Shown here: piece after piece, positions 22,716 through 47,672 of the stretch | Layout: the number at the start of each line of letters is the position of its first letter | How positions within the stretch are numbered: the stretch's first letter is position 1 | Assembly (NCBI GenBank): GCA_936914905.1 | Contig: CAKZGI010000290.1 | Span: 1 to 64,000, forward strand | Origin: an uncultured Trichormus sp. | Lineage (GTDB): Bacteria; Cyanobacteriota; Cyanobacteriia; Cyanobacteriales; Nostocaceae | Reading direction: 5' to 3' | Length of the DNA stretch: 64,000 nucleotides | Position numbers and translations under genes: made by a program | Notes under the pieces: generated by a model | Databases searched by the model: none | Seen by the model: the letters and a program-made list of their open reading frames with translations, nothing else | Told to the model about the DNA's origin: nothing

Positions 22716-23972
22716 ATGATTATAATCGCTTTCTTAGCCTTATACGTTGCTTTTAACCTGGGTGCAAATGACGTTGCTAACGCCATGGGAACATCTGTAG
22801 GTTCTAAAGCCGTCACCCTCAAACAAGCAATCATTATTGCTGGAATCCTAGAATTTACAGGTGCTGTATTATTCGGGCATGGAGTGACAGAAACACTAGG
22901 GACGAAAATTGCCAACCCCGACTTATTTATCGCTACACCACAAACCCTCGCTTTAGGGATGGTAACAGTACTTATATCAGCCGGGGTATGGCTGCAAATA
23001 GCCACCGCACGAGGTTTACCAGTCTCCTCATCTCATGCAGTAGTCGGTGCGATCGCAGGCTTTACTTGGGTAGCATTAGGCATAGAAGCAATAGATTGGC
23101 CATCTGTTGGTTCAATAACCATAGGTTGGGTATTAACACCCATGATTAGTGCAATTATCGCCGCTTTTTTTTACAGTCTCATCCAACACTGGATCTTATA
23201 TCAACCAGACCCTCGCCTACAATTACAAGAATGGATTCCCTGGTTAAGCACAATTTTACTGAGTATATTTGGTGTAATAGTCCTACCATCCTTAACTCAA
23301 CCACTGACAAACTTTTTAATTGAGAAAGTCGGTTTAAACATCCCTGCTCACGACATCCCCATTTTCACATGTGCAGCAGCAGCAATTGGACTTATACTCT
23401 ATAGCTGGAGAAAACTTAACTCCCCAATTACCAATCACCAATCACCAATCACCAATCCCACAGAGCAATTATTCGGACGCTTCCAACTATTAAGTGCTTG
23501 CTTTGTCGCTTTTGCACATGGTTCAAATGATGTCGGTAATGCGATCGCACCCCTAGCTGTCATTTCCTACATCAATCAAACACATAGCGTCCCCAACAAC
23601 GGAATCACCATTCCCTTATGGATTATGATTCTTGGTGGTGCTGGCATAGTTGCAGGTTTGGCAATATGGGGCAAAAAAGTCATAGCCACCATCGGCGAAA
23701 ACATCATCTCCCTACAACCTAGTAGCGGATTCTGTGCCGAACTAGCCACCGCCACTACCATCTTACTAGCTTCCCGATTAGGTCTACCTGTATCCACCTC
23801 TCATGCGCTTGTTGGTGGTGTAGTAGGCATTGGACTGGTGCAAAACCTCAAATCCATCAAATTTCAAACACTCCAAGGAATCGCCACAGCCTGGGTAATT
23901 ACACTCCCAATCAGTGCTGTAATCAGCGCCATAATATTCAGTATTATCCGGATTATATTAAATTTAAAATGA
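22716..23972 (+). CDS. PiT-family inorganic phosphate transporter
   Basis: A 418-residue membrane protein of the PitA/PHO-4 family. It has the two signature repeats: FNLGANDVANAMGTSVGSKA near the N-terminus and FAHGSNDVGNAIAPLAV in the second half. Two further inverted-topology blocks read ARGLPVSSSHAVVGAIAGF and RLGLPVSTSHALVGGVVGI. About ten hydrophobic helices are visible. It imports metal-phosphate complexes with low affinity. The hydrophilic central loop contains NSPITNHQSPITNPTEQ, encoded by an in-frame heptanucleotide repeat. A 43-base tandem duplication covers the stop codon region. The start is the ATG at 22716; a few residues could be missing. Confidence 0.85.
   Translation: MIIIAFLALYVAFNLGANDVANAMGTSVGSKAVTLKQAIIIAGILEFTGAVLFGHGVTETLGTKIANPDLFIATPQTLALGMVTVLISAGVWLQIATARGLPVSSSHAVVGAIAGFTWVALGIEAIDWPSVGSITIGWVLTPMISAIIAAFFYSLIQHWILYQPDPRLQLQEWIPWLSTILLSIFGVIVLPSLTQPLTNFLIEKVGLNIPAHDIPIFTCAAAAIGLILYSWRKLNSPITNHQSPITNPTEQLFGRFQLLSACFVAFAHGSNDVGNAIAPLAVISYINQTHSVPNNGITIPLWIMILGGAGIVAGLAIWGKKVIATIGENIISLQPSSGFCAELATATTILLASRLGLPVSTSHALVGGVVGIGLVQNLKSIKFQTLQGIATAWVITLPISAVISAIIFSIIRIILNLK
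23424..23460 (+). repeat. Heptanucleotide STRR inside the phosphate transporter gene
   Basis: Near-repeats of CCAATCA/ACCAATC are tandemly arranged and translate to part of the central loop (PITNHQSPITN). The repeat keeps the frame. Similar STRRs are dispersed through intergenic regions of this window. Confidence 0.75.
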
Positions 23973-24053
23973 AATCTATTGAGATTCTTACCTAGCAGTT
24001 CTGATCATGAAATGAAATCTATTGAGATTCTTACCTAGCAGTTCTGATCATGA
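23968..24053. repeat. 43-base tandem duplication at the transporter 3' end
   Basis: Two perfect head-to-tail copies, 23968..24010 and 24011..24053, containing ATCTATTGAGATTCTTACC. The first copy includes the stop codon of the phosphate transporter gene. Confidence 0.92.
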
Positions 24054-24351
24054 ATGGAATACATTCGCCGTTTATAACCTAAATAATATTACTGATTCAT
24101 CCCAAGAATTTGGGTGCTTTACCCCTACATTCAATCCGAATTAAACCCAATCACAAACTGCTATATTCTGCAAATACTCCCAAAACTAAAGCCTATTTTT
24201 GCAGAATTGTTAGTCATTTATTAGAATGATAGTATTATCTTCTATTTTTCCCAGAACAATACTTTAATTCCTCAGAGCAACGGAAACTGTCACGCAATTT
24301 ACACTTCGCAAAAATCTTGGTTTTTAACAACCTACCAATCTGCAAGGCTTT

Positions 24352-24428
24352 TAAACAGTAAACAGTAAGCAGTAAATAGTGAACAGCAAATAGTGAACAG
24401 TGAATAGTTATCAGACTGATAACTGACA
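24352..24428. repeat. STRR tract (AACAGTA/AATAGTG type)
   Basis: Seven-base units close to CAGTAAA and ATAGTGA repeat irregularly for about 75 bases, just upstream of the transporter-like gene at 24474. It is typical of Nostocales genomes. Confidence 0.6.
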
Positions 24429-24473: not shown

Positions 24474-26894
24474 ATGGGGCGATTTGAAAAGCGACCAGAC
24501 AACCCACGAATCAGAGGCGACCTATCTAGAGCAGCTGAAAATGCCCTCTGGGATATAGTTGAAGACCTAGAAAATCTGCAACAAAATGTTATCAAGTCTT
24601 TGCAAGACGATGTAAAGCGTCTAGAAGCTGAAAAAACCCGTTTAGTGAATGATATCCAAAGACTGATAGAGGAAAAAGACAAGTTACAACAGGCTCGACA
24701 AATTACCGAACAACAAGTTCTAATTCGTCAGCTGGCGGAAGTTTTAGCAAAGCACATATCTTCCCAATTGCAATCTTCACTGAAGACATTAGCCACCCAA
24801 TCAATTGAAGTTGAGCTTTCTGAACATGCCGCGCTCAGATCTGCTGAAATTAACTCTACAGTAGCTAGTGAGATCAGTGAAAATGTCATCCAAATGCTGG
24901 ACAATCTCGATGATACTGTCACCATTGCTTTTAGCTCGCTGCAACAAGAACTCAAAAATTATCAGAGTCATCTTTCCCAGCTGCTATCACGAATGCATGA
25001 CCAACAGCAGCAAGGGGAAGAGATTTTATCAGAATTTGTGAATCGCCTCCGAGGGGAACTAGAGAAGACCAGAGAAACCATTCCTCTCAAGGTGGTAACA
25101 GGAGGTACACCAACAGTTTTACAACTAACTGAACCTCACAAAAACGGTTTTTTGGAAAAATCACCAGAACGAATTATTGCTGAACCAATTTCCTTAGTGA
25201 CTCAGGAATCGCCAAAAAATGAAAATTCAGCAATCAACGCTGTGATTACATTTCCACTCCCCCAGGAAAATAAGCCATCGGAATCAACTTCTGTTATCAC
25301 TTCTGATTCTTCAGCACAACAATCCACTACAGAATCACCAACTCAACAAAACATATCTGAGTCAACTTCTGTTATCACTTCTGATTCTTCAGCACAACAA
25401 TCCACTACAGAATCACCAACTCAACAAAACATATCTGAGTCAACTTCTGTTATCACTCGTGATTTTTCAGCACAACAATTAACCACAGAACCACCAACTC
25501 AACAAAACATATCTGAGTCAACTTCTGTTATCACTTCTGATTCTTCAGCACAACAATTAACCACAGAACCACCAACTCAACAAAACATATCTGAGTCAAC
25601 TTCTGTTATCACTCGTGATTTTTCAGCACAACAATTAACCACAGAACCACCAACTCAACAAAACATATCTGAGTCAACTTCTGTTATCACTTCTGATTCT
25701 TCAGCACAACAATTAACCACAGAACCACCAATTCAATCCAAAACACCTGAGCCAATTTCTGTTCTTTCTCCTGATTCCTCAGCAAAGCAATCAACTAAAT
25801 ACCAACCCCCACTAACACTTAACTGGCAAATAACACCTCGACGACAAAGAACCCGGAATTCTCCAAACTGGTCGCCGATTCAGGTAGGTTTTCTGTTGGT
25901 TGCATCCTCAACAGTGATGTCATCGCTTTATAACGTAGCTGTGAAGGCGCTTTTTAATGAAGGTTCTGATTTGCTGGGAAATTTTGAAACCCAGCAATTG
26001 ATATCACCAACCTTGGGTAATATTTTCTTAATTTTAATGCTCCGGTTATTGGTGGTTGTGCCATTAATGTTACTTTTGGCTCCCATCTTACATCCTCCAG
26101 TTTGGCAAGACCTACAAAATTTATCTGATTCAGTGAGTATAAGTACTGCTCCCAATAGTGACAAAACAAAACCAGTTTTATTGTTATCAGTTGTGAGTGG
26201 TGGCTTTTTATTTTTGTCACAGGTACTGATTTACATTGCTATTGGTAAAGTAACAACAGGAATTGCGATCGCACTCTTCTTTATCTATCCCATGATTACT
26301 GGACTCTTATCATGGTTTCTCTTTCGAGAGCGTCCTAATTTATTCAGTTCTGGTGCAATTTCCAGCATCTTTTTTGGTCAATTATTAATCTTGGGTAGTT
26401 ATTCAACTGGTACGAGTAATACCTCTTTAGGAATTATTTCTGGAATTATGTCCGGAATAGCTTTTGCTATTTACGTAATTTTTACTAGGTTATGCGCTCC
26501 GAAACTGCATCCAGTTTCATTTGCTTTAATTAACTTCGCCACCATGTTGCTATTAAGCTTCATCTGTTTATTAGTACCATTACCAAGTGATTCGAGTTTA
26601 GCCATTAGATCATCCAATTTACTGGAAGTGATTTTAAGTGCTTTTATGTTGGGTGTTCTCACTCTTTGTGGATATTTATTTAACAACTTTGGAATTCGCA
26701 AATTAGGTGGGCCACGCTCGGCTATAATTGGTGCTGTTGTTCCAATTTTAACAGTGATTTTTGCTGGATTAATGACTCAGGAAAAACTGGATCTCATTCA
26801 AATCTTGGGAGTTTTATTAGTAACTGGTGGTGCTGTTGCTCTCAGCTTTGAGAAAATGCAAACTCAATCGCAATCTTCTAGCTTCAAGAATTAA
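24474..26894 (+). CDS. Coiled-coil, repeat-linker, EamA/DMT-type membrane protein
   Basis: An unusual 806-residue protein. Residues 1-200 form a charged coiled coil (DLENLQQNVIKSLQDDVKRL, LVNDIQRLIEEKDKLQQARQ). Residues about 269-425 are six 26-residue repeats (SESTSVITSDSSAQQ type) rich in Ser, Thr and Gln. The last 330 residues are an EamA-type ten-helix transporter (GFLLVASSTVMSSLYNVAVK, IAIALFFIYPMITGLLSWFL, GGPRSAIIGAVVPILTVIFA). Known EamA proteins export small metabolites. The cytoplasmic coiled coil and linker are not usual for the family. It lies 436 bases before hetR on the same strand. The function is unknown. Confidence 0.75.
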   Translation: MGRFEKRPDNPRIRGDLSRAAENALWDIVEDLENLQQNVIKSLQDDVKRLEAEKTRLVNDIQRLIEEKDKLQQARQITEQQVLIRQLAEVLAKHISSQLQSSLKTLATQSIEVELSEHAALRSAEINSTVASEISENVIQMLDNLDDTVTIAFSSLQQELKNYQSHLSQLLSRMHDQQQQGEEILSEFVNRLRGELEKTRETIPLKVVTGGTPTVLQLTEPHKNGFLEKSPERIIAEPISLVTQESPKNENSAINAVITFPLPQENKPSESTSVITSDSSAQQSTTESPTQQNISESTSVITSDSSAQQSTTESPTQQNISESTSVITRDFSAQQLTTEPPTQQNISESTSVITSDSSAQQLTTEPPTQQNISESTSVITRDFSAQQLTTEPPTQQNISESTSVITSDSSAQQLTTEPPIQSKTPEPISVLSPDSSAKQSTKYQPPLTLNWQITPRRQRTRNSPNWSPIQVGFLLVASSTVMSSLYNVAVKALFNEGSDLLGNFETQQLISPTLGNIFLILMLRLLVVVPLMLLLAPILHPPVWQDLQNLSDSVSISTAPNSDKTKPVLLLSVVSGGFLFLSQVLIYIAIGKVTTGIAIALFFIYPMITGLLSWFLFRERPNLFSSGAISSIFFGQLLILGSYSTGTSNTSLGIISGIMSGIAFAIYVIFTRLCAPKLHPVSFALINFATMLLLSFICLLVPLPSDSSLAIRSSNLLEVILSAFMLGVLTLCGYLFNNFGIRKLGGPRSAIIGAVVPILTVIFAGLMTQEKLDLIQILGVLLVTGGAVALSFEKMQTQSQSSSFKN
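25278..25745 (+). repeat. Six in-frame 78-base tandem repeats
   Basis: Units start at 25278, 25356, 25434, 25512, 25590 and 25668, followed by a degenerate seventh. Units 3 to 6 alternate between VITRDFS and VITSDSS, showing that a 156-base double unit was itself duplicated. Some adjacent units are almost identical in DNA, so the expansion is recent and copy number probably varies between strains. Confidence 0.92.
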
Positions 26895-28230
<1,336 letters not shown>

Positions 28231-30075: not shown

Positions 30076-30182
30076 TAGTCAGTGGTCAGTAGTCAGTAGT
30101 CAGTGATCAGTTATCAGTGATGAATTATTATTCTTTTCTGTTCGCTGTTCCCTGTTCCTAATGACTAATGACTAATGACTAA
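30074..30182. repeat. STRR tracts between rpsD and moaA
   Basis: Two short heptamer tracts: AGTCAGT/ATCAGTG units at 30078..30117, and three AATGACT units at 30159..30182. The second runs into the stop codon of the moaA pseudogene. Confidence 0.7.
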
Positions 30183-31165
30183 CCCCCAATTTGCGACATG
30201 GTACGGGTGTAAGAGCCGACTGTACCTGAGTCGCGTTGTTTAAAGTTAATTTCACATTTGAAGTTTAATAGTTGTCGAACTTGTTCTTGCAATTGAACAG
30301 TTCTAATACCAGCACGCAAAGAGGTTTTCAAATCAATTTGACCAGTTTCATTTAATAAGCAGGGACGTAACCACCCATCGGCACCTAGACGTAATCGATT
30401 ACAACGATCACAAAAACATTCCGACATCTGGCTGATAAAACGTAGTGTTCCCTTCGCTCCTGGAATTTGAAACACATCGGCAGGTCCATTACCACAGATT
30501 TGTGATTCTGTTAATCCCCAACGTTGGCGAATGCGATCGCGCAAATCAGCAGAAGATATCCAGCTGTGATCGCCAAATAATTGACCATTACCAATAGGCA
30601 TAAACTGAATAAACCGGACGTGCCAATTTTTGTGAATCGTCAGCGCGGCTAAATCTAAAATTTCATGGTCATTAACACCAGGAATTACAATTACATTTCA
30701 CTTTAACGGATCAAAACCCACATTATAGGTAGCTTGAATCCCTTCCCAAGCTTGTTGCCAACGTCCACACCCATGATTGCCGATAATTTGCTCAAAGGTT
30801 TCTGGGTCAAGAGAATCTAAACTAATATTAATCCTTCTTAAACCTGCATCATAGAGATTCTTAGCTATGGGTGCTAGTAAAAATCCATTAGTAGTCATTG
30901 CTAAATCCTGAGTTTGGTGAAAATTGGCAATTTCCTTCACCAACTCGACCACACCAGGACCTAACAGAGGTTCACCACCAGTCAAACGAAAGCGGGTAAA
31001 ACTGACGGGAATAAATACCTCTTGAATCAGAGTGAGAAGTTCCTCACAACTTAATAACTGTTGTTTGAGGATATAGTTTAATTCCGCACACTCTGGCATA
31101 CAGTACAGACAACGGAAATTACAACGATCAATTAAACTAATGCGGAGATAGTCTACCTGGTTCAT
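30179..31165 (-). pseudogene. moaA: moaA (GTP 3',8-cyclase), one in-frame stop
   Basis: The 328-residue frame encodes MoaA, the radical-SAM enzyme of molybdenum cofactor synthesis. It has the N-terminal 4Fe-4S motif CNFRCLYCMPE, TGGEPLL, and the C-terminal cluster [20 protein letters not shown] and the final Gly-Gly. It is interrupted by one TGA at 30698 in [17 protein letters not shown], where a leucine codon is expected. Everything else is intact. The N-terminal fragment alone (156 residues) has the first cluster but not the second. Without another copy, molybdenum cofactor and nitrate reductase would be lost. Sequencing error cannot be excluded. Confidence 0.85.
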
Positions 31166-39299: not shown

Positions 39300-39396
39300 T
39301 TCAGTTATCAGTTATCAGTTATCAACTATCAGTTATCAACTATCAGTTATCAACTATCAATTATCAACTATCAATTATCAATTGCTAACTGATAAC
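39300..39396. repeat. STRR tract between bamA and lpxC
   Basis: About 13 units of heptamers close to TTATCAG, TTATCAA and CTATCAA/G lie in the 189-base gap between the bamA end and the lpxC start. The tract is AT-rich and could act as a spacer or a weak terminator. Confidence 0.85.

Positions 39397-46478: not shown

Positions 46479-47672
<1,194 letters not shown>

Follow-up and report, generated by a model that had tools for sequence, protein, structure and literature searches.

The closest described system to the gene reported here is SepJ (FraG, alr2338) of Anabaena PCC 7120, a septal protein of filamentous cyanobacteria that helps keep adjacent filament cells joined. SepJ of Anabaena is 751 aa long, with a conserved N terminus and a coiled coil at residues 28 to 207, followed by a Pro/Ser/Thr-rich linker at 208 to 411 and a DMT permease at 412 to 751 (PMC5623728, PMC6282017, PMC6463045). 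Published work places it at the septa and shows that it forms multimers, and sepJ mutants fragment their filaments and transfer calcein poorly (PMC12096826, PMC6282017). Earlier work favored 9 or 11 membrane helices (PMC6282017). In 2025 the role of SepJ in bacterial multicellularity was still termed elusive (PMC12096826).

Identification of the gene as sepJ

The window, a stretch of 64,000 nucleotides, holds a single 806-aa open reading frame at 24474-26894 on the plus strand, with an ATG start. Its parts, and the gene that follows it, are as follows.

24474..26894, plus strand: sepJ (fraG), assigned as an ortholog, 806 aa (open reading frame, three-domain order and size as printed, orthologs)
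24522..25079, plus strand: coiled-coil domain, residues 17-202, as two helices interrupted near 115-127 (AF2 model, homology to the coiled coil of an Hsp70-like-domain protein)
25101..25862, plus strand: disordered linker, residues 210-463, 254 aa (AF2 pLDDT <50, no hydrophobic segment)
25277..25795, plus strand: 78-bp (26-aa) tandem array, six full units and a partial one (TRF, unit alignment)
25839..25856, plus strand: basic stretch RRQRTR directly before helix 1 (sequence)
25860..26885, plus strand: EamA/DMT permease domain, residues 463-804, ten predicted helices (PF00892, hydropathy, DMT fold match)
27331..28230, plus strand: hetR, heterocyst master regulator, about 0.4 kb downstream of sepJ (NF009718 equivalog, PF03574, PF18460)

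This gene is almost certainly the ortholog of Anabaena SepJ, an identity that, relative to the 7120 protein, rests on the domain borders printed for it. The two proteins share domain order, length (751 aa printed versus 806 here), linker type, and a DMT permease. They differ in the linker, which is 204 aa as printed and 254 aa here, and in the recent 26-aa array of the window gene. The genome of the window has one full-length sepJ match, this gene. Its first 209 residues are 61 to 87% identical in 16 of the 17 other genomes of the family, 44% identical in G220, and 95% identical in the congener.

Since the gene is the ortholog of a studied septal protein, the finding itself is already known. 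A preliminary description of this DNA had suggested a role in intercellular exchange or anchoring at septa, which is the published role of SepJ. It had also called the fusion unusual, a view that does not survive: among 243 genomes drawn from the order, the coiled coil was matched in 138 (E ≤ 1e-3), a count that includes weak matches and may include genomes where only the coiled coil of the Hsp70-like-domain protein answers, and the permease was matched in 144 (E ≤ 1e-30). The same domain order recurs elsewhere, as the description had proposed to check. At 89 of the 90 fetched loci, and also in more distant genomes, a single open reading frame encodes coiled coil and permease, so the fusion is neither confined to this sequence nor split into separate genes in relatives; at the remaining locus (L134) the gene is cut by a contig end. 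We rejected a novel fusion, the gene being sepJ, and, given the same reading frame at these loci, an assembly chimera.

Domain architecture and membrane topology

The AF2 model (mean pLDDT 62) shows helices at residues 17-114 and 128-202 and helices again at 468-804, with pLDDT below 50 across nearly all of residues 203-462 and mostly 70 to 90 in the permease part. No hydrophobic segment was found in residues 1-463, where the highest smoothed hydropathy was 0.34. The EamA family PF00892 matched above the Pfam cutoff (80.6 bits, two stretches). Hydropathy gave 12 partly overlapping hydrophobic stretches, which we reduced by reading to ten, and the fold match supports ten: residues 463-804 of the model matched SLC35B1 (Z 28.9), LicB (23.5), and YddG (17.9). 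The permease part thus resembles the ten-helix DMT transporters in fold across approximately residues 463-804 (YddG, 5i20; LicB, 7b0k/7paf; SLC35B1, 9i20). Unlike SepJ, those chains have 255 to 319 residues and lack the coiled coil and long linker. We take structure 5i20 to be YddG. Ten-helix DMT structures have both ends in the cytoplasm.

Under a ten-helix model with the N terminus inside, Lys and Arg are predicted to be more frequent in inside than in outside loops in all 114 rows, and in 113 of 114 when the long flanking parts are left out; the rows include three second copies (L020/L053, L027/L057, and L029/L150). The 25 residues preceding helix 1 hold on average 2.92 Lys and Arg over the same 114 rows. 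The permease is thus predicted to consist of ten helices from two EamA repeats with both ends cytoplasmic, and with such a fold the linker would meet helix 1 from the cytoplasmic side. This topology argues against the 9- and 11-helix models and is in line with the 2025 models, in which the linker is mostly cytoplasmic (PMC12096826). It also makes it more pressing to ask by what route, if any, the coiled coil gets across the membrane. The preliminary description had proposed a ten-helix EamA transporter with a linker and a cytoplasmic coiled coil. PF00892, the AF2 model, and the fold match bear out that architecture; the cytoplasmic placement of the coiled coil is not established and is disputed in print.

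A related coiled coil in an Hsp70-like protein

The genome of the window also encodes a 1418-codon open reading frame (G000:C335; L154:1131-5384, minus strand) with a SepJ-type coiled coil at its N terminus. Aligned with hhalign, the two coiled coils scored 87.7 (probability 97.8), and the best of 60 heptad-block-permuted controls scored 34.5. An acidic linker with repeats separates this coiled coil from a C-terminal domain that Foldseek matched to Hsp70 nucleotide-binding domains (best E 1.9e-10), a match that indicates a fold class at most, given a model pLDDT of 62, an rmsd above 10, and a TM-score to the target of about 0.3 to 0.4. Pfam, NCBIfam, and PDB sequence searches with the protein or its C-terminal part returned no match. 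No 19-residue stretch of the protein exceeded a hydropathy of 1.55; the usual threshold for a membrane helix is 1.6.

The Hsp70-like domain occurs in 123 of the 243 genomes, 116 of which also have HetR, and in 17 of the family's 18 genomes, where the frames measure 1167 to 1511 aa. We compared the SepJ-type coiled coil in four of the family's proteins (L154-L157); L158-L187 are further matches to the domain. SepI (alr3364) resembles SepJ, as compared by description, in having a coiled coil and a linker-like region, and interacts with it (PMC12096826); unlike SepJ, it has no permease. We rejected SepI as the identity of the 1418-aa protein, as SepI is printed as 521 aa (PMC12421839). In the literature searched, the coiled coil shared with an Hsp70-like protein and the ten-helix permease with its N terminus inside are undescribed.

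Published evidence from peptidoglycan binding, immunolocalization, and SjcF1 points to a periplasmic coiled coil (PMC12096826, PMC5623728), and in the 2025 models it threads back through a tetramer, with the linker mostly inside (PMC12096826). In this account (Flores 2025), the permeases are arranged as a ring of four, through whose center the coiled coils reach the septal periplasm, where they bind peptidoglycan; the linker only positions them. We regard this arrangement as quite possible, if short of probable. AF3 tetramers, a peptidoglycan pull-down, immunolabeling, and the interaction with SjcF1 favor it (PMC12096826, PMC5623728), and cytoplasmic entry of the linker at helix 1 is compatible with it, the bulk of the linker being cytoplasmic in 92% of the published predictions (PMC12096826). 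Against it stand the lack of a hydrophobic segment in residues 1-463, the absence of a signal peptide as stated in PMC5623728, and the homologous coiled coil in an Hsp70-like-domain protein with no clear membrane segment. That protein makes a cytoplasmic home for the SepJ coiled-coil module plausible, and no more; our data are compatible with both a cytoplasmic and a threaded coiled coil.

The linker is an in-frame tandem array

TRF detected a 78-bp array of 6.7 copies in the linker; its score of 812 tops the 25 TRF rows of the window, the runner-up reaching 212. The array has six 78-base units in register, with starts at 25278, 25356, 25434, 25512, 25590, and 25668, in agreement with the six repeats of the preliminary description. 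The units are 85 to 100% identical in pairwise DNA comparison and units 3 and 5 are identical, which suggests recent duplication, as that description had also held. The window assembly consists of 485 contigs and the 519-bp array is nearly perfect, so the copy number of six could be an assembly value.

To place this array among relatives, we compared 90 genes: the window gene and 89 full-length genes of loci L064-L153, with the truncated L134 left out. Their linkers are Pro/Ser/Thr-rich and 85 to 288 aa long. A TRF match (score ≥40) overlapped the linker in 70 to 71 of the 90, and the best period was a multiple of 3 in 70 of the 71 genes with a match; frame-switching phase variation was rejected on this ground. 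Under a strict definition (period ≥40, score ≥100), 66 of the 90 real linkers have an array. When the linker codons were shuffled, none of the 90 reached this level in any of five runs, and 2 to 5 of 90 per run had any TRF match. Periods vary widely (48, 54, 57, 69, 72, 78, 81, 90, 111, and others). In the Nostoc group, linker lengths of about 197, 224, 251, and 278 aa recur, and these 27-aa steps correspond to the 81-bp period.

A length-variable linker had been anticipated, with a comparison of repeat numbers as the check. In the congener G243 the linker is 176 aa long against 254 in the window, exactly three 26-aa units fewer (three versus six), and the flanking DNA is 97.8% (coiled coil) and 98.2% (permease) identical. 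Units are more alike within an array than between arrays: DNA identity is 0.92 within the window array, 0.87 within that of L145, and 0.79 within that of L067, versus 0.66 and 0.67 between the units of L145 and L067, respectively, and those of the window. For the close congener G243 the contrast is absent (0.88 within its array, 0.90 between it and the window). In the draft assembly G181, a break lies inside sepJ between the coiled coil (L009, G181:C10) and the permease (L036, G181:C9). The break fits the effect of a repeat array, and copy numbers from draft genomes therefore need care.

A recurring motif in the linker

When 31 sampled linkers were placed side by side, a word resembling EPISVLxxDLSES kept recurring in arrays of differing period. 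In most of the Nostocaceae genes examined it takes roughly the form E-P-I/V-S-V/L-L/I-x-x-D/E-L/S-S, with up to 8 copies at threshold, and an unsupervised width-12 fit on one group returned a SEP-SV-like word. A seeded 16-column PSSM gave 155 matches in 49 other linkers versus 1.75 expected from shuffles, with a match in 40 of the 49 and a best score at p < 0.05 against the linker's own shuffles in 42.

Because the seed had been picked after viewing linkers of both sets and the first split was not clade-clean (L080 in training, L119 in test), we ran a blind test, in which the training set was exactly a 41-row clade of the tree and random seeds and background came from training only. The blind motif, which carries the EPISV end at its right border, had 85 non-overlapping matches in 32 of the 49 linkers of other clades, where 1.75 were expected; three control motifs, derived from training linkers after shuffling, had 0, 2, and 0. 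The blind motif had no match in 17 of the 49: those of the window, its congener L144, and L146, together with 14 more. The seeded motif has four above-threshold instances in the window linker despite its six units.

Across all 90 linkers, the seeded PSSM found at least one match in 81 and at least two in 79 (median, 5) and none in 9, among them Scytonema and Brasilonema. The commonest spacings were 27 aa (84 cases), 32 (37), 39 (26), and 26 (24). Longer linkers have more matches (Spearman 0.70), a correlation that is partly built in. In the other open reading frames of the window of at least 60 aa, there was 1 match in 26,727 aa. Residues 200-320 of 22 distinct distant SepJ rows, 21 from outside the family and L029 from inside it, held none; 4 of these 22 rows had TRF matches, all within nucleotides 193-274, before the linker. 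A linker search of the window's own genome was answered by sepJ alone, with no second protein with a similar linker.

On a FastTree phylogeny built from the coiled coil and the permease, three changes are needed to explain where the seeded motif, scored at its threshold, occurs. In our reading the motif was gained once, basal to an 83-row clade (support 99) from which G220 and the Scytonema/Brasilonema branch had already split off, and was lost in G210 and G142. Long branches were flagged in this tree for L151 and for the joining of G220 with the outgroup; L029 and L150 represent the same G220 gene. L151 (from G142) and L149 (from G210) are family members without the seeded motif within the motif-bearing clade. 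In the 3.8-Mb genome of G142 the Hsp70-like domain has no match; its sepJ linker is short, at 99 aa, and its branch is long.

The repeats could be neutral, the product of slippage within a linker of low complexity, and the motif retained only through descent from one repeat and a constraint on composition. This explanation may well hold, although we stop short of calling it probable. It is consistent with copy numbers that differ among close relatives, with arrays that homogenize, and with the absence of the motif from 9 of 90 linkers in the looser test and from 17 of 49, including the window, in the blind one. It fits less well with a motif that is found across differing periods and in 9 of the 11 linkers without a TRF array that were checked in the blind-fit run. 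Nor does it readily account for the information profile of 151 distinct instances, in which motif columns, inflated by choosing instances on score, reach 2.7 bits and flanking columns lie at 0.1 to 0.8 with one at 1.4 (mostly <0.85). The copies of one array do not count as independent observations, and the linkers are related by descent.

The linker of SepJ has been printed as not conserved in sequence (PMC5623728), whereas the motif is present in most relatives here. An enriched, repeated motif within a part described as unconserved offers a concrete handle on SepJ function. The linker array and its motif appear to be undescribed: among the matches listed in the open-access literature searched, partly by listings, we found no description of either, and the "repeats" mentioned beside SepJ in the accessible text of PMC7766704 are TPR.

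Proposed function of the linker

We consider it very probable that the sepJ product is a cytoplasmic-membrane protein of the septum, a ten-helix DMT-type permease joined by a long disordered linker with a motif array to a conserved coiled coil. A multimer of the permease would sit in the septal membrane. The linker may leave the permease on the cytoplasmic side as a multivalent tether, whose motifs might dock a partner, for example, the divisome protein ZipN or SepF that recruits SepJ. ZipN, SepF, FtsQ, FtsW, and FtsI are listed as SepJ interactors (PMC12288457) and would be candidate docking partners. In most of the Nostocaceae genes examined, we read the linker as more than random spacer, since it carries copies of the motif multiplied by in-frame tandem duplication; the array could lengthen or shorten at little cost.

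We propose only tentatively, as the more doubtful interpretation, that the array is functional: a motif gained in Nostocaceae and copied in tandem, with copy number setting the strength or reach with which the septal complex captures a probably cytoplasmic partner, and a coiled coil belonging to a module that also occurs in an Hsp70-like protein of filamentous cyanobacteria. As the blind motif had no match in the window, we slightly lowered our confidence in this docking array. If the coiled coil is instead periplasmic, the repeats would be a length-adjustable spacer; a plain spacer needs no enriched motif.

Genomic neighborhood and distribution

The hetR gene downstream of sepJ matched the HetR equivalog NF009718 of NCBIfam with 623.6 bits. 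At 83 of the 90 fetched loci, hetR lies downstream of sepJ on the same strand. Of the seven loci without it, three (L134, L138, and L143) stop within sepJ or shortly past it, and the other four (L080, L104, L114, and L128) lack hetR in roughly 7 kb or more of sequence beyond sepJ. In each of the 18 genomes of the family (f1, which we infer from the names of matching records to be Nostocaceae, here and in all other family-level counts), the two genes are at most about 3.4 kb apart; in G181, where sepJ is split by contig ends, the permease half adjoins hetR. Outside the family, no listed sepJ-hetR pair lies within 20 kb, as judged by eye among assemblies many of which are fragmented, and the nearest is about 26 kb (G176). 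With no close pairs seen outside, adjacency appears to be mainly a family trait. In Anabaena 7120, hetR (alr2339) is presumably the next gene after sepJ. The preliminary description had reasoned from the position beside hetR to a role at septa, a step we do not follow, adjacency having been seen in the gene's own family only.

Over the 243 genomes, a SepJ-type coiled coil and HetR occur together in 132, each alone in 6, and neither in 99. An ordinary EamA exporter unrelated to septa, fused to a coiled coil by chance, is highly improbable: the PF00892 match and the occurrence in the order of EamA-like frames of about 320 to 345 aa allow for it, but the fusion is one open reading frame at 89 of 90 loci and in 22 distinct further rows, the SepJ-type coiled coil tracks HetR, and the published ortholog has septal phenotypes.

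Several smaller features were found in the window. Upstream of sepJ, TRF detected a perfect 43-bp direct duplication (23967-24054) that spans the end of a phosphate-permease-like gene and the sequence after it. Short tandem repeats of heptanucleotide type lie at 24352-24408, just upstream of sepJ, and at 39301-39383, 46479-46514, and 46527-46566 (TRF). On the minus strand at 30179-31165 is a moaA-like gene, named by reading its protein, with one in-frame stop and the rest of the frame open. In the relative L145 this frame is open over 332 aa, and the stop in the window marks either a pseudogene or a sequencing error.
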